A stretch of 64,000 nucleotides of DNA, taken from Odiellus spinosus. Lineage: Eukaryota; Arthropoda; Arachnida; Opiliones; Phalangiidae. The notes below the pieces were generated by a model. The model was given only the letters and a program-made list of their open reading frames with translations, searched no databases and was not told where the DNA came from. This document shows, in pieces, positions 26,001-52,900 of this stretch; the first letter of the stretch is position 1; every line of letters starts with the position of its first letter. The position numbers and the translations under genes were made by a program. Location: the NCBI GenBank assembly GCA_963920705.1, contig OY987226.1, positions 436,501 through 500,500 on the forward strand. Direction: 5' to 3'.

Positions 26001-29000
26001 GCCAATGTCCGAAGAGATAAAAACCAAGATTATATCTACTAAAGACGAAATAAACAAAAGTCTAATGGAAAGTCAAAGGAACGCTAGGAAAAGCCATTAT
26101 TTAGAACCTCCTGGCATGGGGTTCGCGTACGCTCCCTTGTCTAGCTCTCAAAATAGAGGCGTTAAAGCTATTGAGAATATGGAATTGACCGATATGGAGG
26201 TTGAGGAATCCGACGAAAATACCAAAGAAGACGTTTTGACGACTAAGGATAATGAGAAACCCATTATTACGAATGTTCTACTTAATGAAATTGTTAAAGA
26301 ATCGAATGAAATTGATAAAGAGGTTGGAATACTTCCTCTTAATGTAGAGTTGCCTTTAGTTCCCGAACCTAAAAGTTCAGTTTCCAAAGAGGCTTCGGAT
26401 ACTACCGCTATAAAAGCGACTGAAGCCGTTGCTTTTAAAGAAACTACGGATGTGGTTGCTACTAAAGAAGCTATGCCTAGTACCGATAGAGCTACGGAGG
26501 TTAGCGCCCCTAAAGATTCCGGGGAGGCTGAAGTAACGGAATCTATAGAGAAAGATTCTAAAGAGCAATTGGATGACAAGGCGGGCGAAAGCAATTTGGA
26601 GGACAATGTAGATGAGGACAATGCTGTTGAAGACAATTTGGAAAATAATGCGGGTGAAGGAAATTTGGATGACAACCCTGGTGAAGAATATTTGGAGGAC
26701 AACGCGGGTGAAGACAATTTGGAAGATAATTCTGCCAATGGAAATTTGACAAATTTTGCGACGAAAGAATCAGTTCCTTCGCCGCTTCAAGCAAATAAGC
26801 AATTAAAAGATTTGGAAGAAGAAATTAAGGCATTGAATGAATGTTCAGCCACCAATGAAACTGGATCAACTACTTCAAAAGGTTATTAATCAATGTTTTA
26901 CTCAATCTAATTTGTTTGCACTCTTTTTTGGTTTCTTTGCAAAAATAAAAAAAACTGTTTTTTTAGAGACAAGTGAAGCCTCGCTCCACGCAACCCGGGG
27001 ATTAAAATCAATAGAACAAAATCAAGGTTAGATATCTAAGAACTCTTACTTTTAAAGCTATCTTTTTCTCTATCTTTTTGTGTCTGGGGAAATACTTTTG
27101 GCATGACTTACTGGTACCGCTTCTTAAAGAAGGCTCGCGACCCGAAACTATTCTGGCTAGGCTCGCGAATTTAATTTTTAGAAATAGATATATTGCGCCA
27201 CAATTCGGGGAAATTATAACGATAAAAAACTCTTTATTTTGTTCTTCATCTTCCATTTCAATGTTATTTCTTAGCGCACACTGTTTGCGATCCCGCACCA
27301 GAAATGGAAATAGCGAAAAAAGACGCGGGTTCCGAGGGAAACGAAGAATTCGTGACTTTGGACGAAGCTTTGGGTGATGACGAGGACAAAGTTGATACCG
27401 CTCTAAGCAGTCCCAGGCTCGCCTTAGACTCGGGTAAATTAAATTTTAACTTATTTCAATTCTTAGTATCAAAAGCCTTTTCAAGTTTCCATCAGACAGT
27501 GTAGGAATAGTTCTCATTACGGAACTTCTAACTTCCAAAAACGTGTTTAAATGATACTCGTGTTTTACGCGTGAGAATATTAAAGTACTCGATTCGGGCC
27601 CTGCCATATGGATCTCGCGCCAAGCTTACCAATTTAATAACGAGAAAATTCCCCAAACTGTTTCTACATAAGTCTCTTTTACTTTTCATTTTGATGTGTT
27701 CTCGTAGAGTAAAACCCAATCAGGAAAAATGAACTAATTTCTAAGAAACAAGGGGCATTGAAGTGAAAATGTATTTGTAAGGCCATTGCAAGGAAAACCC
27801 ACCCTGACTATTGAGATAGAGCGTCTTGAAATTAGCGCTGGTAGTGTAAAAGCGTTTAATGTCATACTTGGTTGACTTGTGACGTATTCCCTTCCATGCT
27901 GGACACTCGTTTTGTTGCGTTAGACGGTGCCGAAGGTGACAGTATGTTTGGATCGTACGAGGACACCCGAGAATTCCTCGATTTCGCACCCATTTGACTA
28001 AACGGTACACATTTTTTTAAAATTCATTTTCAGTGATTGGAAATTGGTATATGTAAATTCCCATTTTGTTTTCTAATATATTCTACGCCGACGAACCAAC
28101 GGTACCCCTCTCACCTCTTCCATTTAACACCCAAATTAGACTCGAATGGCACCTTATTGCGACCTAAGAGTTTCTTTTAAATTGATCTTTTGGTGTTGAG
28201 AACAATTAGAAGAACGTAAAGGCAATGTTTTCGTTTTAAACTCATTAATCTTTTAAAAACATCCACAGGGTATAGAATCTGGATTAAGTAAGGTTTTTTT
28301 CCTGAATGGGGGAAAAGTCAGGGATTTAAAATATTTCATAGAATGTCAGGGATTTAAAATATTTCATGGAATGTCAGGGATTTAAAATATTTCGTAGAAT
28401 GTCAGGGATTTAAAATATTTCGTAGAATGTCAGGGATTTAAAATATTTCGTAGAATGTCAGGGATTTAAAATATTTCATAGAATGTCAGGGATTTAAAAT
28501 ATTTCATAGAATGTCAGGGATTTAAAATATTTCATAGAATGTCATGAATTTAAAATATTTCATAGAATGTCATGAATTTAAAATATTTCATAGAATGTCA
28601 TGAATTTAAAATATTTCATAGAAAGTAAAGGATTAAAAATATTTCCTAGAAAGTCAAGGATTAAAAATATTTCCTAGAAAGTCAGGGAATTGAAATATTT
28701 CATAGAAAGTCAAGGATTAAAAATATTTGCTAGAAATTTGGGATTTAAAATATTTCCTAGAAAGTTGGGATTTAAAATATTTCCTAGAAAGTCAGGGACT
28801 TGAAATATTTCTTAGAAAGTCAGAAATTTAAAATATTTGGTAGAAATACATAAATATTGATGACAATTAGTAAAGGAATAGTATTATAATAATTCCAGCT
28901 ATGATTCAAACAAAACCGAGAATATCTGGAAATGTTCAATTTTTTTGAAAAAAAAGTGAATATAACATAGATACCGGGTTTGAATTTAAAAGTAGAACTA

Positions 29001-34428: not shown

Positions 34429-37400
34429 CTATTTTGGCCAAGCGCACACTTTGAGGGTAGAATCGAAGATCAAAGTGGCTGGGCATCTCATGACGTGGGC
34501 GTAGCCTCCTACGCATTGGATGAATTGTTGTTTGTCTTTGGGATGAGGGTAGAGACCTTCCGGTTCCGGGCATTCAACGTCTTCGTCTTCTCGATCTTCT
34601 GCGAGAGAATTACCATTATTAGTTACCAGACGTCAATAAGTTACCCCAGCTGGGAATTCTTAGGGGCGTGTGGGAGGCACTCGATTTGAAACGTCATTAT
34701 AGCTAAGATCGCGTTATCGTATTTCAATCGATTATTATCGATAACATTACACCGATATTTAAATCCCTCCAATCAATTTTAAGCTCGCCGTATCTTTGGG
34801 AAATATATTTTTGCTAACAATAAAGGCGCGTTCAAATCCGTATCAGAACAGAAATTAATTGTTAAAGAGTAATTTAATATTTTTAAAATTGTGGTTAGTG
34901 GGTTTAGTCTACTACTACTAAGATTTTACTAAGCCGAGTTCACACTAGGCAGCTTGGAATCGATTTAAACCATTTCAAAACGATTCTCTCGAGTCGTGTG
35001 AACGGGAAAACGGCTTTTCTCGAATCGATTTGGTTCGATTTCTTGAAACCGCTTCGGGAACCAGTTTCGAATACCGATTCGGCTGGTTTCAACTGAACTG
35101 ATAGATGAAGCTACGATAAATCGATTTATAAAGATAACGCGTGACTCTTAAATCGATTCTTGGCGATTTGAATTGATCGGTTTGATTTTATCTTTTTGAA
35201 TCGATTAGTGTGATCGTAGCTTAATTAAACACGTTCCTAGAATGGGGTTTTATTGGCGCGTACGAATTCCCAGTGTTTGACCGCGTGATTAACTTTTTAG
35301 CCCTATTCCATGCAATCAAGGAGGATCAGAGAAGTAGAGGAAATGTGGGGCTGCGTTGAGTTAGAGAGAGAAGAGCCAACCTCCCACTCGGGTGGAAAGG
35401 GGGGATAGGAAATTCTCGAGGTAAACTGTTGTCACGTGGTCGCTAGCTAGCGCGTCTCATAAAGGATTCGTTTTACCCACGCGACAACATTTTACCACGA
35501 AACGTCTCTACCCCCGTTCTCCCAGAGTGGGAGTTTAGGCCGACGCAGTAGGAACCGCGCCGTCCCCACATTTCCTCTCCTTCTCTGATCCTCCTTGATG
35601 CAATTAAGTAATCAGAATGTCGTCACCATGACTCCCGCCAAAAATATACAGGGTGTTTCGAAAATGGTGGTAGGACCGAGCTCCAGTGGGTTCTATGGGT
35701 CATTTTAAGACGAAAATGTTCTATGACGTTTTGTCGTACGGGGCGCCGTTAAAGAGTTACGAAATGATTCATTTACGGATGACCGCTTATCGTACAATAA
35801 TAAACGTATACTCAATGCTAAAATAAGCTTAATTTTATTTAAGCTTATTTGATCATTGAGTATGGCTGGTTTTTTTAAAACCAGGACTGAAAACAGGTCT
35901 GAAAACAGGACTGAAAACAGGACTGAAAACAGGACTGAAAACAGCACTGAAAACAGCACTGAAAACAGGACTGAAAACAGGACTGAAAACAGGACTGAAA
36001 ACAGGACTGAAAACAGGACTGAAAACAGGACTGAAAACAGGACTGAAAACAGGACTGAAAACAGGACTGAAAACAGGACTGAAAACAGGACTGAAAACAG
36101 GACTGAAAACAGGACTGAAAACAGGACTGAAAACAGGACTGAAAACAGGACTGAAAACAGCACTGAAAACAGGACTGAAAACAGGACTGAAAACAGGACT
36201 GAAAACAGGACTGAAAACAGGACTGAAAACAGGACTGAAAACAGGACTGAAAACAGGACTGAAAACAGGACTGAAAACAGGACTGAAAACAGGACTGAAA
36301 ACAGGACTGAAAACAGGACTGAAAACAGGACTGAAAACAGGACTGAAAACAGGACTGAAAACAGGACTGAAAACAGGACTGAAAACAGGACTGAAAACAG
36401 GACTGAAAACAGGACTGAAAACAGGACTGAAAACAGGACTGAAAACAGGACTGAAAACAGGACTGAAAACAGGACTGAAAAGAGGACTGAAAAGAGGACT
36501 GAAAAGAGGACTGAAAAGAGGACTGAAAAGAGGACTGAAAAGAGGACTGAAAAGAGGACTGAAACAGGACTGAAAACAGGACTGAAAAGAGGACTGAAAC
36601 AGGACTGAAAACAGGACTGAAAACAGGACTGAAAACAGGACTGAAAACAGGACTGAAAACAGGACTGAAAAGAGGACTGAAAAGAGGACTGAAAAGAGGA
36701 CTGAAAACAGGACTGAAAACAGGACTGAAAAGAGGACTGAAAAGAGGACTGAAAAGAGGACTGAAAAGAGGACTGAAAAGAGGACTGAAAAGAGGACTGA
36801 AAAGAGGACTGAAAAGAGGACTGAAAAGAGGACTGAAAAGAGGACTGAAAAGAGGACTGAAAAGAGGACTGAAAAGAGGACTGAAAAGAGGACTGAAAAG
36901 AGGACTGAAGAGAGGACTGAAAAGAGGACTGAAGAGAGGACTGAAGAGAGGACTGAAGAGAGGACTGAAGAGAGGACTGAAGAGAGGACTGAAGAGAGGA
37001 CTGAAGAGAGGACTGAAGAGAGGACTGAAGAGAGGACTGAAGAGAGGACTGAAGAGAGGACTGAAGAGAGGACTGAAAAGAGGACTGAAACCGCCGTCAC
37101 AATTGTTGTTTTTAAAAATTAAATAAATCTTCAAAAAAGGCTTAAGTTAAGGCGGGAAAAATTGTACAGAGAAAGGCTGCCATACAAAAACAAAAAACCA
37201 CTCGCTCGAGAAAAATGTTTAGCGCGTGATCCTGAAAAAACATTTTTTCTCGAGCGCGTGTTTTTTGATTTTTCTTTAGTAAAGGTATGGCAGCCTTTCT
37301 CTGTACAATTTTTCCCGCCTTTTTTGAAGATTTATTTAATTTTTAAAAACAACGTTGGTGACGGCGGTGTAAATACACGTCCGCTTTTTTCAAAGCGTAG

Positions 37401-40194
37401 CTTGGCCGATTTCGTTTCCTTAAAAAGTTAACGATCCCGCTGGTTTTAAAGCGTAATTCTGGCAGACTAATCCGCTTTTTTTTTTAAAGCGTAATTTTGG
37501 CAGTTTAATCCGCTTTTTTTAAAGCGTAATTCTGACGGACTAACCGCGACTTTGCATAGACCATGACGGAGGGCATTTTCAACAATTTCTTTAACAATTA
37601 AGAAAATTCTTAAAGGAATTGCGCAAAATTATCACTTTCATGGTAGAATTTAATAGTACTTTACTAATTTGGTCCATTTTCCTCGAATTTATTAGAGATT
37701 TCGAATTGCCTAAAATTTTACATTTTGTCCATTTAATGGTATTTAAGCGAGTTTCCCCGATTTTTAATAGAATTTAGAAGGAATTTTCTCACTTGGTCAA
37801 ATTTGGTTTAATTTAAATTTTCCTCGAATTTAGAAGAAATTTTCTCGTTTGGCCCATTTTGGTTCAAATTTTTTTCCATTTAGCTCCCTTTTCATTGACT
37901 CGGTGCGGGCGACCTCTTCAAAGCGCGAGAATTGATTTTGATTGAAAGGGAACATTTTATAAAGCGCGCGCGCTTTATAAAAAACCAGCCATACTCAATG
38001 ATCAAATAAGCTTAAATAAAATTAAGCTTATTTTAGCATTGAGTATACGTTTATTATTGTACGATAAGGGGTCATCCGTAAATGAATCATTTCGTAACTC
38101 TTTAACGGCGCCCCGTACGACAAAACGTCGTAGAACATTTTCGTCTTAGAATGAGCCATAGAACCCGCTGTAGCTTGATCCGACCACCATTTTAGAACAC
38201 ACCCCGTATATTACGCTAGTCACGGCAATGTGTCGAAAAACCATATAAAGACTTATGTTAATATTTACCAGTAGTTGTAGGTTTAACCGCGTTGTCTGTG
38301 GAATTGGAACTATCGGGTGACTGTGTGCTTATTTCGGGTCTTATATCTAAATTAAGTTTAGAGTTAAATTAAAAACAAAATTGAGAAAACAATTAAAACA
38401 TAAATTTGGTTTTTCGTCATTGCAATTGGCTACTCTTTAATTTGAGGAGAAAATTATACGCGAGTCTTATTTATCCGACATTAATGATTTAAAAGTACAA
38501 TAGATCTAGGCTAAACATTGTAAGATTAACTTTTATTTAACAAATTTTGAAAGAATCCTCGTTTTGAACAACCGTGGTCGCTATCAAATCTATATTTTTA
38601 GCATTAAACGTTTACAAAAGCCTATAACATTATCCCATAAAAGTAAACAACGCCAACAAAGAAGACAATATAGCCAAGCGCGGCCCGCCTAAATTCGAAC
38701 ACTCTCTCATTCCCGACTCAACATATCGAACTGAAGAGTCCAAATCACTGGAGACAGACAGGGGTGATGGGCTAGTACCTTTACCCGCCCCTTTGTTGAT
38801 AGTTTACTTTTATAGAATCAAGTGATAGTCTTTTGACGTTTATCTAAATATATGACGCGTTATGAAATTCCCCTAGCTATTAGAGAGCGCCACGTGGCTT
38901 GGCGACTAGACCCTATTTTAACCCACCCTTCTTTACGTTTTAAAACTGGATTACCTGGTCTGTTGCGTTTTCCGCAATTAACTCCGGACGCTTCGGCGCA
39001 TTGCATAATTTCGACATCGAAAAGTTCGTGCGATGGACACAGACCTAGATAAGGTTCCTTTTGGTAACAAATGTAGTAGGCGTGGCATAAGATGTCGTGA
39101 GGATAGTAACCGCGCTCCTCTGGACAGGAGAAATCGCCCGATTGCTTGCCACCAGTTGATGCCCCGTTACAATCGTCTAATGACAAAAATATAAAAATAA
39201 AGAAAAAATTATAATCCTTTGCAAAAAACCGTATTCAAATTCCATGATTTTTTTATCTTGAGACAAAAGAATGCTTTAGTAGTAATTCCTTCGTAAAAAA
39301 TGGTAATAGCTGGAAAGTTATAGACAGCGCGGAAGCGGGGCATACTTTTTTGTACGATCTATTTCAGAGTGATCACGTGACTACGTTACGTGATCGCATT
39401 TCCTATATTTTCACCACCTACTTCCTAGTTTTTCCTATAATTGAATGGACATTCCTATAATCTCCTATAGATGTACTCAAAATCTAAAGCTATTGGTGAG
39501 TTGTTAATCCCTGACCAAAATAACCCATTAGTGATCAATTGCCCAAAATAACCAATCGGTGATCAATTACCCAAAATAACCCATCAGTGATCAACATGCC
39601 CTAATTTGAAGTCCAACATTGATCACGACTAAACTGGGGTAAAAAGACTAATTGATCAGGCCCAGAAATCGTTTCAAATTCAATAAGTTTTTAGTAAAAT
39701 AATCGCTCGGATTTGAGTATCACCAGATTTCTTGGGCGCCCCCATTTGGCTAGCGCCCGGGGGCAGGTACCCCGTCTGTTCCCCTCTCCCCTTAATCCGG
39801 CCCTGGTGATCAATTGCCAAATAAGCCAAAAGTGACTAATTGCCAAAATAACCAATCAGCGCCCAATTTCCAAAATGACCAATCGATAAGCAATGGCCAA
39901 AATAAGCGGTCGATGACCATCATAAATTAAGAATTAATTTGCAATGATTATTATTAATTAAAAGTTCTAATAAGCGACACGAAGTATCCGTATTTGAAAC
40001 GAAGTTTTACTTTTGGTTATGGATTAAAATTGATGAACCCAATTAATTCTGACCACTATACTTTATCTATTACGTAATTGAACGAATACCAAATAATATT
40101 TGCCCATAAGTTCTAGGGTTATTATTGGTTGTTACTTACAAATTACTATAAGTACGATGCTTAGTAGAATTAATCCGTTAACTCGTTTCGCCAT
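34429..40194 (-). CDS. Secreted protein with two peritrophin-A (CBM14) chitin-binding domains, paralogue 2
   Basis: Exons 40194-40140, 39176-38955, 38346-38269 and 34598-34429 (minus strand, all phase 1) encode 174 residues. The exon order and first-exon length (55 nt) equal those of paralogue 1. Exon 1 is a signal peptide (MAKRVNGLILLSIVLIVI). Exon 2 is a six-cysteine domain (Cys36, 49, 55, 65, 78, 86). Exon 3 is a shorter Ser/Thr linker. Exon 4 is a four-cysteine domain (Cys128, 147, 157, 170) ending CAWPK. The third intron is 3.7 kb, against about 0.4 kb in paralogue 1, because it holds two short transposon relics and a 2.57 kb foldback element. For exon 3 I chose the AATTTAG acceptor at 38353-38347 because it keeps phase 1. 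Confidence 0.94.
34930..35223. mobile_element. Family B MITE (TTCACACTAG ends), copy 1
   Basis: About 290 bp, left end AAGCCGAGTTCACACTAG, right end complementary to it with mismatches (ATTAGTGTGATCGTAGCTT). The interior is rich in ATCGATTTAAA and GGAACCAGTTTCGA blocks. Three more copies lie at 47628, 56191 and 61495 (reverse). This copy is in the last intron of chitin-binding paralogue 2. Confidence 0.88.
35317..35597. mobile_element. Family C MITE, 281 bp, copy 1
   Basis: 34-bp near-perfect terminal inverted repeats beginning CAAGGAGGATCAGAGAAG. Flanked by a 7-bp direct repeat ATGCAAT (35310-35316 and 35598-35604), read as the target-site duplication. A second copy, in opposite orientation, lies at 50473-50753. 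No coding capacity. Confidence 0.93.
35883..37089. repeat. 12-bp minisatellite, about 100 copies
   Basis: Unit GGACTGAAAACA in the left half, GGACTGAAAAGA in the middle and GGACTGAAGAGA at the right, with a short mixed zone at 36550-36720. Because 12 is a multiple of 3 and the unit has no stop codon in several frames, it creates open frames of 150-419 codons on both strands. These are repeat-derived, not genes. Confidence 0.97.
37090..37369. repeat. 280-bp palindrome inside the foldback element
   Basis: Arms begin ACCGCCGTCAC at 37090 and end GTGACGGCGGT at 37369. They stay complementary through GGCGGGAAAAATTGTACAGA and AAAGGCTGCCATAC to an inner CTCGAGAAAAA core. The left arm has a few extra bases near 37140-37150. 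It resembles a complete hairpin-type MITE nested in the larger element. Confidence 0.92.
37430..37545. repeat. ~40-bp triplicate
   Basis: Three imperfect copies of AAAGCGTAATTCTGGCAG + ACTAATCCGCTTTTTTTT inside the foldback element, to the right of the palindrome. Confidence 0.85.
38637..38812. mobile_element. Family D MITE-like repeat, copy 1
   Basis: About 175 bp with ends TAAAAGTAAACAACG and ...GTTTACTTTTA, in intron 2 of chitin-binding paralogue 2. Its interior (around AGCGCGGCCCGCCTAAATT, GACAGGGGTGATG and GAAGAGTCCAAAT) recurs in reverse at 41710-41888. Confidence 0.8.
39495..39910. repeat. Interrupted ~28-bp tandem repeat
   Basis: Degenerate units of CAATTGCCCAAAATAACC + AATCGGTGAT at 39510-39600 and again at 39805-39915. 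The two blocks are separated by about 200 bp with a short GC-rich stretch (GCGCCCGGGGGCAGG near 39755), which looks like an insertion. It lies in intron 1 of chitin-binding paralogue 2. Confidence 0.8.
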
Positions 40195-43904: not shown

Positions 43905-46900
43905 ATGAATAGTATGATGTGTAAAGTGTTGGTGATTTTTTGCGAGTTTTGGGTGATATCACTGTGTTCGGAACAAAAAGTTTTAAACTTCGGTGTTGAA
44001 CCAACTGTCGTAATTCTCGGAGAATCTTCTACTATTAAACCCTTACCTGGTTCCGTTAATTTGGACGCTCTGGGTGGGTCCGAAGGTCATATATTGCTTG
44101 AAAAAGGTACGACGTTAGTTTGTCCCTAATTTATTTCGTTCTTTGGTTAAAAGTTTAAGTTAAACTATCATTAAAATAATTATTAATGAGACTGCTTAAG
44201 TTTTAAGTAAGGTTTTATAAACTTTTTATCTAGTAAATGTTTTGGTCAGGGGAGATATATACCCATATATATAAATTAAGTTATTTTATGTTAAGAAAAT
44301 ATTTCAACCCTGGATTCGTATCCGGTTGAAAGATTTCGTAGATTAGTTTTAATACCTTGTCCACCAGGGTTGCCACGGGTCAGGGAAAACGGGGAAAAGT
44401 TAGGGAATTTGAAAATGAATCAAAAAAGTCGGGGAACATTAAGATATTTTAAAAAGTCAGGGAATTTAAAGATCTTTCGAGAAGCCAGGAAATCGCGATC
44501 ATTATCCACGGAAAAGATTCTCAGCTGACGGCGTGTCAATTGAGATTAGAACAAAGATACGCCCGCAGTTTGGCCAACGTCATTATATATAACAATAAAA
44601 GGTTGAAAATTGGGTAGTATTAGCGGGGAAAATCGTTGTAAAAGGTCAGGGAAAAACCTGGAAAAGTCAGGGAATTTGAATCTGAAAAAACTGTATCAAC
44701 CCTGTCCTTGGATTAATCAGAAACATGTATGGTTATTCGATAGAAGATCGTACCTAGACCCTAAAATTGTTTTGATATCTGAGACTTCAACCCGTTTTCT
44801 TCAGATAACTTCGATTGAAAGTTATTCAAATTTGTAGTATCAAAGAATTTACAAGTTCCTTAAACATTGGTTAAAATCGAGATATATTAGTATTATAAAT
44901 TTTCATTAAAAATCGCTTGACCCTACGGTGACGCGATTGGTTGAGCTCACCCGGAATAACCCCGTTTCATTTCAGCGGGTCAAAACACCGCGACTAACAC
45001 AACCAGGGTAACTTCAACATCCACACCATCGATTGCAAAAATGACTCCAAACTCTAAGCAAATGACATCGGAGTTACCAATTACGGGGAAAAATGAGGAC
45101 ACTCCGATTAGAACCACCAAAAAACCTTTTACGTGGTACGTGGCAATTTATTAAATAATTATACTGAAAGGTAATTAGTAATTTGTTTAAGAAAAGGACC
45201 GGTTTGCTAGTTACCGAAGGCTACTTTTAAAAGAAATATTATTGTGTTAGAAACAAAAAAACAAGATGATGAAGCCCGTAAGAATACGTACACCCCTGAC
45301 ATTTGAAAAGAGCCCGAAGATAATGAAACCTTTTCGATTTTATCTCTGTCCTTTTCGCATTCTCTTCGCCTTTGCCTTTTTCACAAACACTTTGCGTGTC
45401 ACAATTAAGGGGTATTCGTGGTTTTTAAGTAAGGGAGAGGGGTGTAGCTAAAAAACGTCCATAGTAGATATCTGCTTAGAGAAATGAAGTAAAATATTAC
45501 CGATGAAACAGTTAGCTTAGATTGTCGAAATCCATATAGAAATATATGTTTTTAGCCTATTTTAATGTCAATTTTACTAAAATATAAGCTTAACTTAAAA
45601 CTGAAAAAGCTCGATTATTAGCGGCGAGTTTAAGTCCCGGAAGTTTTGTTACAGGACCGGAAAGACTTCCTCTAAGAAAGCTTCTTTTCTGGAACGCGAA
45701 AGAACAACAACCCCTTTCCCGTCTTTGGAAGACGAGGACTCGTTGGGTCCCGAAGCCAAATGGAAAAAATTCGAGGACAACACCAGGAACATGATCGAAA
45801 CACTCGTCAAACGAATGATGCCGCAATTACTAAAGATGTCCTCTTCCGGTGCCAATTTCACCGCCCAGTGTACCGCCGACTTCCTCAAAGTGGTCTTTGG
45901 GATGCGACAGCTCAAAGGATGGGCTCTTAAACGTAAGCGTAATGACTATTCGTAGCAACAGAAGCCGATGAAACCCTCCTTTGAAGTCTACTACTCTAAT
46001 GTTCGATATAGCGCTCCTCTCTGTATGGGTAAAATTCCCAATTTTACGAGATCGGAGGGGTCCTACTTCATACCCCCCTGTCTAAGGAAAATTGGAAATT
46101 CTCTCTCTCCACAAACGACGACGTTTTTTGGACGAACTCCGAGGCTGCTAGAGATATTCGTTAGGAGGCGTACGAATCGCGCTTTTTGAAACTAACTCAT
46201 ACAGAGAGGGGTAGACAAGACCCGGGAGTAATAGACTTCAAAGGAGGGTTTCATCGGCTTCTGGTAGTAGCAATCAAAGTACTACTACAAAGGGATTATC
46301 CGCTAGTTTTTAAATCCTCATAATTGTAATATTTCAAACGAACGGAAATGAACCAGTCGCTGCCTACGAATAGGGCGCGATTGTCGGGAGGTTTTCTTAA
46401 AGAACTTTCCTCGTTCGTTGTTGGTTGAATATCTTTTTGATTTAACCACCTTTATCCAACCAGGCGTGACTAGCTTTCTTTCGAGTCCTTTTTATTGGTT
46501 TAAGGTAACATTTCTTGAAAAGGCTTCGTCTCGCTTCGTTAATCACCCATTTAATGAAAGCGAGGAAAACTGGTTTTTGTTAAATATTCTTATTCTGATA
46601 CGATACAAATTCCTTATACAAATTTTCGAAATGATTGAAAGGTTTTCAATTTATATTTCTCCAATCCTGGTTGTCTTTTTGTATTGCTATAATAATTTCA
46701 AGCAAAGATGCTATTGACACTGTATTAGAATACGTATGATTATGGGCTCATAAGCAAATTAGTCAGGGAAATGGAAAAAGTCGGAAACTTTAATGTTTTT
46801 TCATATCCATTATTGGTTTTCCGAGAGAGATATGTCCCTGATCAGGGAAAAGTCAGGGAATTTGAAAATAAACCAAGAAAGTCAGGGAATTTTAAGATAT

Positions 46901-49900
46901 TTTAAAAAGTCAGGGAATTTAAAGATCTTTTGGGAAGCCAGGAAATTGCAATCATTATCCGCGGAAAAGATTCTCAGCTGACGTCGTGTCAGTTGTATAG
47001 ATTAGAACAAAGATACGAGTGCAACAAAGTTTGGCGAACGCGATTATATAAAAAATAAAAGCTTAAAAATTGTGTAGTATGAGCCGAAACGGTCAGGGAA
47101 AATCGATGGAAAAGGTCAAGGGAAAAACCTGGAAAAGTCAGGGAATTAGAATCTAAGAAAACTAAGGACAATTTTGAAATTGCGTATATTTCAATATATT
47201 TAGTATTGGACTCGTCAGGGCGCCCTCAAGCGGGTATTTTCGAAGGCGCCATAACCGACTTTGGCGAATACGACGAATGTTTGAACGTCATTGCCACGGA
47301 GAAATCGACTTGGGGTCCAACTGCTGGCCAAAACAAAGAATTGTTTCGTGGAAAGTATTGCACTCTTCTCATGCAACCGGCTTTACCGGCCAAACCAAAG
47401 ACTCTTCAAAAAGGAACCTCAGTCGTTCAACTTGGCGAAGAAGATTCGGTATTATTTCTATTTTAAGAGCAATTATAATGATCATACCCGTAGCTGATAG
47501 AAAAGTTTAAGGCTAGCTTAGTATTTTCCTGAGCCTTAAGCGCGATTAAAAATGTAGTGTCCAATCTCCATATAGTGTTGCGCGGGGACCACCTTTGACA
47601 AGTAATACCAATACCTCCGACACCATCTTAGCCCCGTTCATACTAGCTGCAGCTTGGAATCGATTTAAACCGTTTCAAAACGTTTCCTTTTCTCGAATCG
47701 ATTTGCTTCTCGAAACTGCTTCGGGAACCAGTTTCGAATACCGATTCGGCTGGTTTCAACTGAACCGATAGACGAAGCTACGATAAATCGATTTATAAAG
47801 ATAACGCGTGATCACGCTAAAACCTGGCGATTTGAATCGATCGGTTTGATTTAACCGTTTCAAATCGATTTAGAAACGCTAGTGTGACAATGTAGCTTTT
47901 TTTCAAGCTAACCCTGATTTTAACGTATTATTTAATCAGCTTAAATAAATTAAAAACGTCTACACTTCATTATCCCTTTAAAGGGATTATCCCCGCCGCC
48001 TTTAGAGTCGCCTTCTATTCTAAGCTTAGCGGACGACGTTGAGCGTAACAAATTATACAGTCAAAGCTAGGATGTGGGTGAAAGGGAAGATGATTTTAAA
48101 GGGGTAAACTTGTAGAGCAATTAGGTTCTTAAAAAATATGACGTGTCTATAGTATCCCTTTAAAATAATTTTTCATTTTAACCCTTAGTTGCTAGGTATT
48201 CTAACGGAAAGCGCCCATTTTTTTTACCATTTGCGACTTCGACTGGGCGTCTGCGTTCCCGATTCTTGCTTACCTCATGACGCCCAATTGTTCATGAAAG
48301 AAAGTAAGCCTTAAAGGCCTACACGTTATTCTATTACGCTATTTTTAAAAAAGGGTTCATATTATAGTATGGAAACATCTTGGGTTTAAAGTGTCTGTCG
48401 AACACTGCGAAACCAAACGCGATTGGTCCCTCGAAATGCACCAAATTCTTTGTCTGTTAGTATTAATTATTCCACTATTACGTTATTCGGAATAAGCTTA
48501 AGGGTCCCGAAGTGTTTTAGAAAATTCATATTTGAAATTTTTCTACTTAGAGCCGTTCTCGGACTCGTTGTTTCGGCTGTTTTTACAGGAACCGCCATTG
48601 ACGTCGTAAAGACTTATTATCTGACCAAACCAAATGGTATCCCATCTTCTAACGGTGCGTACGCCCACCTACCCTACTCGTATAATAACTTAAAAAATCT
48701 AAAAATATATCTTCGATTTTCTATACAAATTGTAAGCCTATATCGTACTTAATTCAACAAATTAATTAATTCAATTGGAATTAACCTTAATTCAACAAAA
48801 ATGGACCAAAAATTTAATTCTGATTTAATTTTTTTCCTCGTTAATTTGAGCCATTTTTGTCCCAATTAGAAGGTTTTTTCTGATTGGTTAAACCAATTTC
48901 TTTCGTTATTCTATGGGAGTTAATTAAAATTAAAATTAATTTAACCGACTGTATATGTAAAAACTCAAATTTGGTTAAAAATGACCCAAATTTGGGGAAG
49001 AACAAAATCTTCCATTTTTCGGAAGAAAATTAAATTAAATTTTAATTATCTTATCATTAATGTTTAACGTATAAAGGTGGATGGGTATTAATTGTGACTC
49101 CCGCCACTACGTCTAACAAATGCTGGCTAAAATTGGCGCTAGTTACGTTAGATAGCATTTGCGGACGATGTTTTACTTTATAGTTTATACTGTCTTTAAA
49201 TCAGGTGTATTGAATATTTTGCAGGTAAATTGATACGAGTCGCGAAAGCCTTGTCTTTATATAGCAATGGCAAAAAATTGTTGAAGACTGAAGGTGGAGA
49301 CAAAAACATGGGAGCTCTCCACGGAATGCGATTTATTAGCATGACTTGGGTTCTCTTAGGACACACTTACAGCTATTTTCACCTTTCCGGATTTAGTAAG
49401 TAAACTAATACATTCCTTATTGAAACTCGAGGGCGAGATTTTTGAAGAAAATGAATTTAAACGGTACGCGCTACTTATAGATAATAATAGACTTATGATT
49501 ATACGCGTAGACGATAGAACGTGGAAAGAAGGGGGGAGGAATGAACGCGCCTGCGCGGTGGGAAGCCGGTTAGGTCACGCGCGAGTTACGTGACTGGGGA
49601 AAGAGGAGGAAATCCTACAATAAAGAAGCCGGCGCGCGTACTAGGATAGTAGGATGCCATAGCGTCCCTTCCCCCATCCCAACAATGAGTCTTGCTACAG
49701 CCAATGAAAGGAGAGTATAAGGAATTTACTATTGCGTAATTCAAGGCCGTAGTAGAACGCGACAGGTGGATGGCTCCCTCCCGTAGAATACGGCGCCTAG
49801 TACGACTGTACGCGAAGAATGAAAATTGTCCCGAGTAGGCCTAGCGTTCTTTTTTGGCCTAAAAAATGTCGGTGTCTTTTCTAAACGTTAGGCTTAGCTA

Positions 49901-52900
49901 TGTGAAATGTTTTTATATTTTTTCAGTATTCATTTTGAAGTTCTAGCCATTTAAAGGATGTTTATAAAGAATTGCCGTTCTAATTTAGGGTTAATGGTAA
50001 ATAACTTCGAAATTAGGGGAAAATTTTATTGAAACGTCGAGTCCTACTCTTTATCTACCATAATCGCGGTTAATCCAATAAATCGTACTTATTGACCCGG
50101 ATTTAGAGTAAAAATGGCTCGTTTTAATATTTTTTTAGGAGGTATTAAAAACTTGCGTGATGCTCCGGAAGACCTATCATTTATGGCTGTCCTCAATGGT
50201 TGGGTTGACGTCGATACCTTTTTTCTCTTGGGGTAAGGACACTTACAAGTACTTGCCTCATATTAAAGGGGTTACGTATACAAACTTGGAAAACCTGTAA
50301 TTTTCAAGGAATTTGAATATTTTTTCCAAAATATTAGGGAAAGGGTGAAACATTTAGGCCTATGCCTATATCATAAATCAAGGAAATTCTGTGAACTTTG
50401 ACATGAATCAGGGAAATTCTGTAAAATTTGACATAAATCGGGGAAATTCGGAAAAATTTGCATAAATCAGGGCAAGGAGGATCAGAGAAGGAGAGGAAAT
50501 GTGGGGACGGCGCGGTTCCTACTGCGTCGGCCTAAACTCCCACTCTGGGAGAACGGGGGTAGAGACGTTTCGTGGTAAAATGTTGTCGCGTGGGTAAAAC
50601 GAATCCTTTATGAGACGCGCTAGCTAGCGACCACGTGACAACAGTTTACCTCGAGAATTTCCTATCCCTCCTTTCCACCCGAGTGGGAGGTTGGCTCTTC
50701 TCTATCTAACGCAACGCAGCCCCACATTTCCTCTCCTTCTCTGATCCTCCTTGATCGGGGAAATTTTGTAAAATATGACTTAAATCAGGGAAATTCTGTA
50801 AAATTTGACCTAAATCAGGGAAATTCTATAAAGTTTGACCTAAGTCAGGGAAAGTCTGTAAAATTTGACCAAAATCAGAAATTCTGAAAAATGGGACGCG
50901 TATCAGGGAAATGTATCATAAACCAGGAAAATTCTGAAAACATTAACATAAATCAAGGAAATTTATGGAAATACGACATTAACTTTAATGACACTAATAA
51001 TTAAGTACAACCTTAATCAGGGAAATTCGTAGTTTTTATTGTGATTATTTGCACCTGGATCTATCAGGAAAATTTATCAATAAAAATCTTAAAAAAATCA
51101 GGGACATTGGTTTTCCTATATATTGTACGAAGCTATAGAAGTTTCTAGAAACTAATATTAGTTTATTTTATTTGTTGTTCGCAGTGGTATGGCTCTATGC
51201 TATTCGATCTTGAAAAAATCCAACGGTAAACGTCATCTAAATATAGGATTCTACTTATTTCACCGATATTGGAGGTAATTGTACTTAATATCTCATAATT
51301 CCTTACCAAGATGTGTCTTAGAGAGTTAGTCTTAGAGTGTTTTTCACTCTTTTGTTTATTGTTAAATTGTCGATTAGGTTAGCTCCAACTTTTGGCTTAG
51401 TTCTGGCCTGCGCGTTCCTAACCCCGCTATTAAGTTCGGGTCCTCTTTGGCACGACGTTGTCGAAGTTGAACTCGAAAGGTGTCACCTGAGCTGGTGGAG
51501 ATCTTTGCTCTTCATCAGCAACTGGTACCCTCTAAACGAAATGGTAATTAAACCCAAGTTTCTATTCAAATTAAAGTTAAATTTAACTATTAAATGGTTC
51601 GTTTGTACGTAGTGTTTGCAACCCACGTGGTACTTGAGTTGCGACTTTCAACTGTACTTGATCGCTCTCGTCGTTATAGTACCATTGCTGAGGTTAGATA
51701 TTATTTTAGACAATTACTCTTGGTTTTGACTGTAGTTAATTAAAAACGCGACTTAGATGGCCCTCCGTTGGAATGTTCGTTAATATTTCGATGATGTTGG
51801 CGTCAGGCATCGTGTTGGCCGTCATCACCTTCTATCGAGGATATCCGCCGTCTATGACGCACGTTGGACCAGATGCCAAGTAAATTATTTCACAGCCTCT
51901 GGGGAAAAATTAACGGCTCTTAATTAATTAGTACCTCGTTGGAAAAAAGTTAAATACTTCGTGTAAGAAGTGTATTAAACAATTTTTAGATTCATCGAAC
52001 AAATGGCTACCGAAATCCATTGGAAACCTTACACCCATTTAGGACCTTATTGCGTCGGAATCGCGCTGGGTTACTTAGTTTACAAACAACGCCAATTGAA
52101 AATTAAACCAGTTAGTTTCAGTTAATTTAATTCATTTAATTTTACGAATGATTAAATTATTTGTCTCTTGTCAGTATATGGTAGTTTTTGGTTGGGTGTC
52201 AGCCGCGACATGCGCCATGGCCGTATTGTACGGCGCTTACGATTGGAACAACGGACACTTGCCGAACGAATTGGTGACGTTGACGTACGCTTCGTGCCAT
52301 AGAACAGCCTGGGCTTTGAGCGTCGCTTGGGTCATTTTCGCTTGTATTTACGGAGTTGGCGGTAATTATTTTAACACCTTTTTACAATTCGTTAAAGACC
52401 AGGTTATCCGCTCTGAAATTTGCCCCTTTAAAAATGCTCTTCTATTTAAGGGGTTTTAAACAATCGCGGATAGTCCCTTTAAAGGAAAATTAAGTGTTTT
52501 TTTTTTAATTAATTCTCCTTGATTACCAAAAAAATAATTAAAAAATGTTCTGATTTAGTAATAGCATATATTCAACTAAAAGTAGAACCTCCGACCAATC
52601 AAAAGAAACCCAAGGCTGTACCTTTGAATTAATAAAATCCCCTCGACACTCGCTCTTTTAATCATGGCTCTAAATCTCATTCTTGATTAATTTTTCGTGC
52701 AACAGCGCTCATTGCGGATATTTTACGAAGTTATTAGGGAAGTCTTTTAATTAGTCGGAGAGATTTTAATTTCAATCGAAATGCCAAAAATCTTTCAATC
52801 TTAGTCAATTTATTTAATTTTATTTATTTTTTCCGCTTAACCGAGATATTTCCTAAATATTTTAATATTTAATTTATAATGAGATGACGTCATTTAATCA

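Follow-up and report, generated by a model that had tools for sequence, protein, structure and literature searches.

The window, i.e., the whole 64,000-nucleotide stretch of Odiellus spinosus DNA that was analysed, carries a composite foldback element. Taken as a whole, the evidence makes it very probable that this element is a non-autonomous copy of Tc1/mariner type with arms of ~230 bp, a deletion derivative which carries a tandem array and is presumably moved in trans. A chain leading from a mariner-type parent through a deletion derivative to a composite foldback is readable here in a single genome.

Anatomy of the element and its putative intronic setting

The copy in the window is 2,558 bp long (35649-38206). 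Its ends were set by the shared terminal motif and by TA on both sides, the left copy of the target duplication lying at 35647-35648 and the right copy at 38207-38208. The parts follow each other in the order left arm, 12-bp array, palindrome, 38-bp triplicate, a stretch of ~430 bp and right arm. The left inverted arm (5'-CAGGGTGTTTCGAAAATGGTGG..., plus strand, 35649-35880) and the right inverted arm (5'-CGGGGTGTGTTCTAAAATGG..., minus strand, 37974-38206) pair without gaps at 95% complementarity between 35657-35880 and 37974-38197. With gaps, the match reaches the ends (35647-35880 against 38208-37974, 94.5%), and the inverted termini, put at ~230 bp in the initial annotation, measure ~232 bp. 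Between 35301 and 38500, the longest stretch of exact inverted complementarity measures at least 79 nt, the limit of the scan; the maximum in 100 dinucleotide-preserving shuffles was 16. The hairpins that had been noticed inside the arms are real and span 56 nt each (35808-35863 in the left arm and 37991-38046 in the right arm). The outermost part of the right arm is unlike the left arm. Indeed, its bases 38180-38206 (...GTGTTCTAAAATGG inward) form a terminal variant, not the left-arm type, and this variant is present at several of the 17 genome places which match a terminal pattern with one extra N. A diverged arm at locus L035 is closer to the left arm of the window (89.5%) than to the right arm (87.0%) over 162 bp.

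The interior of the element is composite. The 12-bp minisatellite (35878-37090, plus strand) comprises 101 copies in blocks of the variants ACTGAAAACAGG, ACTGAAAAGAGG and ACTGAAGAGAGG; the count of ~100 copies in the initial annotation is borne out by a value of 101.2 copies with 98% matches. As was also said there, the tandem repeat stands on one side only, adjoining one arm. The palindrome of 280 bp described earlier was found again at 37090-37368 as a series of nested inverted pairs, and is predicted to fold into a single long hairpin, a fold computed without a shuffle control at that length. At 37437-37547 (plus strand), a 38-bp repeat in 3.1 copies forms the triplicate; the unit of this repeat is 35 bp in loci L013 and L016. 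The triplicate is followed on the plus strand by a remnant of the C-terminal end of a transposase (37547-37644) and by the remainder of a 3' module (37645-37973) that is common to the region 3' of the transposase in loci L074 and L075.

Exons encoding CBM14 (chitin-binding) domains lie on the minus strand on both sides of the element. The upstream exon (38955-39176, splice sites read from the sequence) and the terminal exon (34429-34598) are separated by a putative intron at 34599-38954, and they join in phase 1 with GT/AG borders read by eye. In a tandem paralogue the arrangement is the same: its exons lie at about 31.6-31.8 kb and 30.1-30.2 kb, and its intron is ~1.4 kb long. Because the flanking exons share strand and domain and join in phase at GT/AG borders, the sequence supports the earlier placement of the element in an intron, here of a chitin-binding-domain gene. 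Long self-complementary arms and a palindrome in this inferred intron could also be taken for a functional hairpin-RNA locus that feeds an siRNA pathway. Transposition alone accounts for the hundreds of dispersed termini described below, and such a function is very unlikely.

The same stretch contains other repeats. An unrelated inverted-repeat element of 285 bp with 36-bp ends (35315-35599) lies in the same intron, ~50 bp from the foldback element, and matching sequence also occurs in L024, L045 and L050. A dispersed minisatellite of ~22-30 bp with the core TCAGGGAA occurs 27 times on the plus strand of the window against once on the minus strand; its places include 28317-28845, 44395-44477, 46848-46947, 50372-50472 and 50754-50922.

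Dispersal, target sites and mobility

A search of the genome with the left arm gave 1,313 first-look candidates. From the 40 that were scored, 83 matches were listed, many of them matches to the internal hairpin. The terminal pattern CAGGGTGTNNNNAAAATGGTGGTNGGANC has 378 exact sites in the 443-Mb genome (100 of these places were listed), and the reversed control has none. The loci retrieved contain 38 pairs of facing termini, pairs under 250 bp being left out; removal of six from duplicate loci leaves 32 two-ended copies, the window copy included. They range from 299 to 4,725 bp. Among loci L041-L070, 16 of the 17 two-ended loci are compact hairpins of 299-542 bp.

TA stands on both sides of 27 of these 32 copies, the exceptions being L026, L034, L052, L053 and L054. 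Near-identical flanks are shared by seven of these copies (L047, L054, L056, L064, L067, L069 and L070), which are not independent; six of the seven have TA at both ends, and with all seven excluded the proportion is 21/25. The TA target duplications anticipated in the initial annotation are therefore seen in most two-ended copies. The same annotation held that a lack of other genomic copies of the arms would speak for a local inverted duplication. This argument does not apply, as the genome search with the arm found many copies elsewhere.

The dispersed termini (378 sites against none in the control) and the TA flanks together establish that the window element is a mobile element, not a local duplication. 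An immobile inverted duplication joined by a chance tandem repeat has a single point in its favour, namely that no empty site was found: the joined flanks were compared with the retrieved loci, and one 230-bp joined query was compared with the genome, and no listed match spans the junction. Against it stand the spread of termini over many contigs, the TA flanks and the fact that, in copies with differing flanks, similarity stops at the termini, so that a local origin is almost certainly wrong.

The seven compact hairpins with near-identical flanks are centred in another inverted repeat (TTGAACATA / TATGTTCAA). This outer repeat was tried as an empty target; its 80 matches (40 of 118 candidates scored) include none that crosses the junction. 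It looks like a nested foldback that was amplified as a unit. Elsewhere, six family termini lie on one strand with a spacing of 1,100-1,113 bp at C1:5731375-5736941, and termini are arranged likewise near 5.64 and 5.67 Mb. In these places, sequence derived from the element appears to have turned into a tandem satellite.

Transposase-bearing relatives and probable parentage

The initial annotation had proposed a search for an autonomous relative. A relative with a transposase inside the same arms does exist, at L074 (C5:3766553). Its arms, present at both ends, are 93% and 96% identical to the window arm, and TA lies beside both. The transposase they enclose is in two open pieces split by one TAG. 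The spacer between the left arm and the transposase (239-941) is unlike the window copy, and L074 has no palindrome.

Further copies were found by searching the genome with the transposase fragment of L013. Among the 150 of 364 candidates that were scored, five are 87-100% identical and 145 are at most 47% identical. The five are two copies on C4 (L013 and its duplicate L014, which form one duplicated segment), L073 (C5:3263238), L074 and L075 (C6:3790326). All five adjoin modules of the foldback element. Each of them is either broken or truncated, and an intact transposase was not found. In L013, an arm, the 3' module, the palindrome and the 35-bp repeats are followed by an open frame with a DUF4817 helix-turn-helix. 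The transposase, repeats, palindrome, 3' module and arm of the C4 copy recur in L073 at 90-91%, and the similarity of the two copies ends within a few bases of the arm end; the palindrome of L073 holds ~2.1 kb of other sequence. In L075, the transposase comes immediately after the palindrome and runs in the direction of the 3' module. The transposase fragment of L013 points away from the palindrome, as does that of L073. Since this direction is opposite to that in L074 and L075, the L013 and L073 copies must be rearranged.

The enzyme is related to mariner-type transposases. Read through as a single sequence, the L074 transposase matches Mos1 over residues 30-306 (E=3.2e-6), and a profile of seven rows matches Mos1 (2.6e-12), Sleeping Beauty (3.9e-11) and SETMAR (4.7e-6). 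The fragments are less informative: the C-terminal piece of L074 alone has SETMAR, Mos1 and Sleeping Beauty as its best transposase matches at only E=0.22-0.31, and the N-terminal fragment of L013 by itself matches nothing in the PDB up to E=1. In Pfam, the transposase matches DUF4817 above the cut-off and HTH_32 below the curated cut-off, and none of the DDE models. Its acidic positions align with the acidic catalytic residues of Mos1, and 36 residues separate the second from the third. The genome also contains numerous DUF4817 mariner-like transposases at most 47% identical to this one, some of them open over 360-367 codons. A distant relative, with matches of 32% and 63% (the latter in the C-terminal part), lies near a compact hairpin in L051 (2657-3160). 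It is the only one that tblastn against all retrieved loci found among L041-L070.

A trace of the transposase persists in the window. At 37547-37644, 23 residues are 91% identical to the end of the transposase; in another frame, which contains a stop, an overlapping match covers 25 residues at 56%. The transposase body between the palindrome and the 3' module is absent. Because these last residues remain, the best reading of the window copy is that a Tc1/mariner-like element with long arms gave rise to it by internal deletion, and that it is not a foldback of Mutator type. The first reading as a foldback-type non-autonomous transposon holds for its shape, TA flanks, dispersed copies and transposase-bearing relative; the affiliation changes, the relative being mariner-like rather than of the FB/Mutator kind. 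The hairpin element said to be nested inside is a real palindrome. Since it adjoins the transposase in L013, L073 and L075, it more probably belongs to the parent transposon as one of its modules than stands as an independent element, judging from the part of its 40 scored genome places that was examined and notwithstanding its absence from L074.

It could be objected that the transposase of L074, L073, L013 and L075 is a hitchhiker and that the arms are mobilised by another, unseen enzyme. The broken state of the five close copies, the deviating spacer of L074 and the difference in orientation between L013/L073 and L074/L075 would fit this objection. Nevertheless, remnants of the transposase C-terminus lie within the 3' module, both in the window copy and in the other tblastn-matched loci with the module. 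Moreover, copies on C4 and C5 share transposase, repeats, palindrome, 3' module and arm, and their similarity ends within a few bases of the arm end. A hitchhiking transposase is therefore improbable, and descent from the mariner-like parent is preferred.

The element shares with the Tc1/mariner superfamily the TA duplication, non-autonomous derivatives and a larger relative which has the same arms and encloses a mariner-type DD(E/D) transposase, related to Mos1/Tc1 and with an N-terminal helix-turn-helix. Internal tandem repeats are known in mariner-type MITEs: miDNA4 of X. tropicalis is such a MITE with internal satellite repeats (PMC9659126). The tandem repeat inside the element is alike. 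The element described here differs from the Tc1/mariner superfamily and its MITEs, miDNA4 included, in its hairpin-bearing arms of ~230 bp, in its composite interior and in a 12-bp repeat which reaches 320 units and adjoins one arm only. MITEs are short (usually under ~600 bp), non-coding and numerous, and have TIRs; the 16 compact hairpins of L041-L070 fit this description, and the window copy, at 2,558 bp, is too long for it.

Foldback elements offer other likenesses. Tetris of Drosophila virilis has ~220-bp repeats in its arms and duplications of 8-10 bp, and its transposase was not found (PMC4079207). Foldback anatomy, variable tandem repeats and ends in common with a MITE are similar, whereas the present element has TA, a transposase-bearing relative and 12-bp repeats beside one arm. 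Galileo, of the P superfamily, is characterised by a P-type transposase, 7-bp duplications and ~210-bp repeats in two or three copies in an arm (PMC3573991). Long arms, an excess of non-autonomous over nearly complete copies, and expansion and contraction of tandem repeats are common to both (PMC3573991). Merlin elements with internal tandem repeats include one with a 12-bp unit in only four units (PMC8101967). The likeness is that of a 12-bp tandem repeat in a DNA transposon; the superfamily is different.

A classical Foldback/Mutator-type element, like FB or Tetris, with convergent ends would also have long arms, tandem repeats and a dynamic structure, and the ends of Tetris are likewise shared with a MITE (PMC4079207). 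The duplication here is TA rather than the 8-10 bp reported there for Tetris (PMC4079207). Indeed, the longest identical flanks are 6 bp (1/32) and 4 bp (8/32), are TA-rich and never reach 7-10 bp. The array of the window copy adjoins one arm instead of both, and the transposase enclosed in the relative is mariner-like. A Mutator-type identity is thus highly implausible. No published description of the family was found in the literature searched, which left out subscription papers and Repbase. Internal tandem repeats being already known in mariner-type MITEs (PMC9659126), what is new within that literature is that long arms and a composite interior occur together with a 12-bp array which changes fast and adjoins one arm.

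Origin and turnover of the 12-bp array

Arrays of at least 12 decoded units, the last of which may be partial, are present in 19 of 20 loci retrieved with the arm query, L017 having two units. This fraction is biased, because the last bases of the query that selected the loci lie in the array. When every fifth of the 100 listed termini was sampled systematically, the window itself being excluded, none of 19 had an array within 421 bases; about half of the array-bearing ends would be missed in such a sample because the array sits at one end. On this count, the array-bearing form looks like a minority of the family. None of the transposase-bearing loci has the array, and runs in L013, L014 and L072-L075 do not exceed two units.

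Of the 22 array-bearing loci, 16 have the arm/array junction TTTAAAAC[CG]AGGACT. On the array side, the junction was not caught in L018, L019, L024, L031, L034 and L071; in L031, the array begins some 170 bp away from the arm. The opposite arm, as far as it was caught (L020, L022, L029 and L033), reads TTTAAAGC... in place of the array. As the junction is common to 16 of the 22 loci, its sequence points to a single origin of the array for most copies.

The arrays have changed much more than the arms. Their length varies from 2 to 320 units across loci, the longest being in L026. L020 has 76 identical units, and L027, L033 and L035 have alternating two-unit patterns. Among 17 of the 21 decoded copies (L028, L031, L036 and L071 have no qualifying arm), the mean distance over 136 pairs is 13% for the units and 0.8% for the arms, a value lowered by the choice of copies, which are the best matches to the arm. 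The two distances are uncorrelated (Spearman 0.08, p=0.35). L071, to which the window copy is most closely related, matches it at 97.6% identity over 1,117 positions in the palindrome, 3' module and right arm, and yet has a different mix of units: ACTGAAGAGAGG makes up 71 of 123 units in L071 against 13 of 100 in the window copy. The array of L071 (C15:16833900-16837600) passes directly into other DNA, no second arm being visible, and a tandem repeat of ~25 bp flanks its other side.

A plausible history can be proposed, in which we infer that the element is mobilised in trans, in what order the events took place and how the array expanded. The ancestor would have contained the palindrome with the 35-bp repeats, the transposase, the 3' region and an arm. 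An internal deletion would have removed the transposase gene but spared the palindrome, three short repeats and the final residues of the protein. The 12-bp repeat would have arisen at the inner end of one arm, probably a single time. The array would then have grown and shrunk independently from copy to copy; the most likely mechanisms are replication slippage and synthesis-dependent repair of the excision gap. A mariner-type transposase would presumably move the element in trans into TA, in this case in the intron of the chitin-binding-domain gene.

It may further be speculated that the array is a hypermutable module tied to transposition, re-sized and homogenised in each cycle of excision-repair or insertion, which would make it a mobility barcode of each copy and possibly affect how copies move. 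We regard this as rather unlikely. The genome offers a natural series of copies with near-identical arms and minisatellites that differ widely in length and unit sequence. Such a series is a direct route to ask if transposition drives the turnover of tandem repeats and seeds new satellites.

The 12-bp unit was also considered as a binding site of the transposase, for it has AGGAC[TC]GA in common with the outer 45 bp of the arm. This idea is not supported: 80 of 400 shuffled consensus units match as well, and for the window unit 50 of 400 shuffles do. Only the L031 variant did better (3/400), being one of three units tried at several lengths. A further minisatellite, unrelated to the array and resembling CAAAAATGTCGCCTACAAATCGA, lies beside the copy in L020 (1-4600), where six frames are open over more than 1,200 codons.
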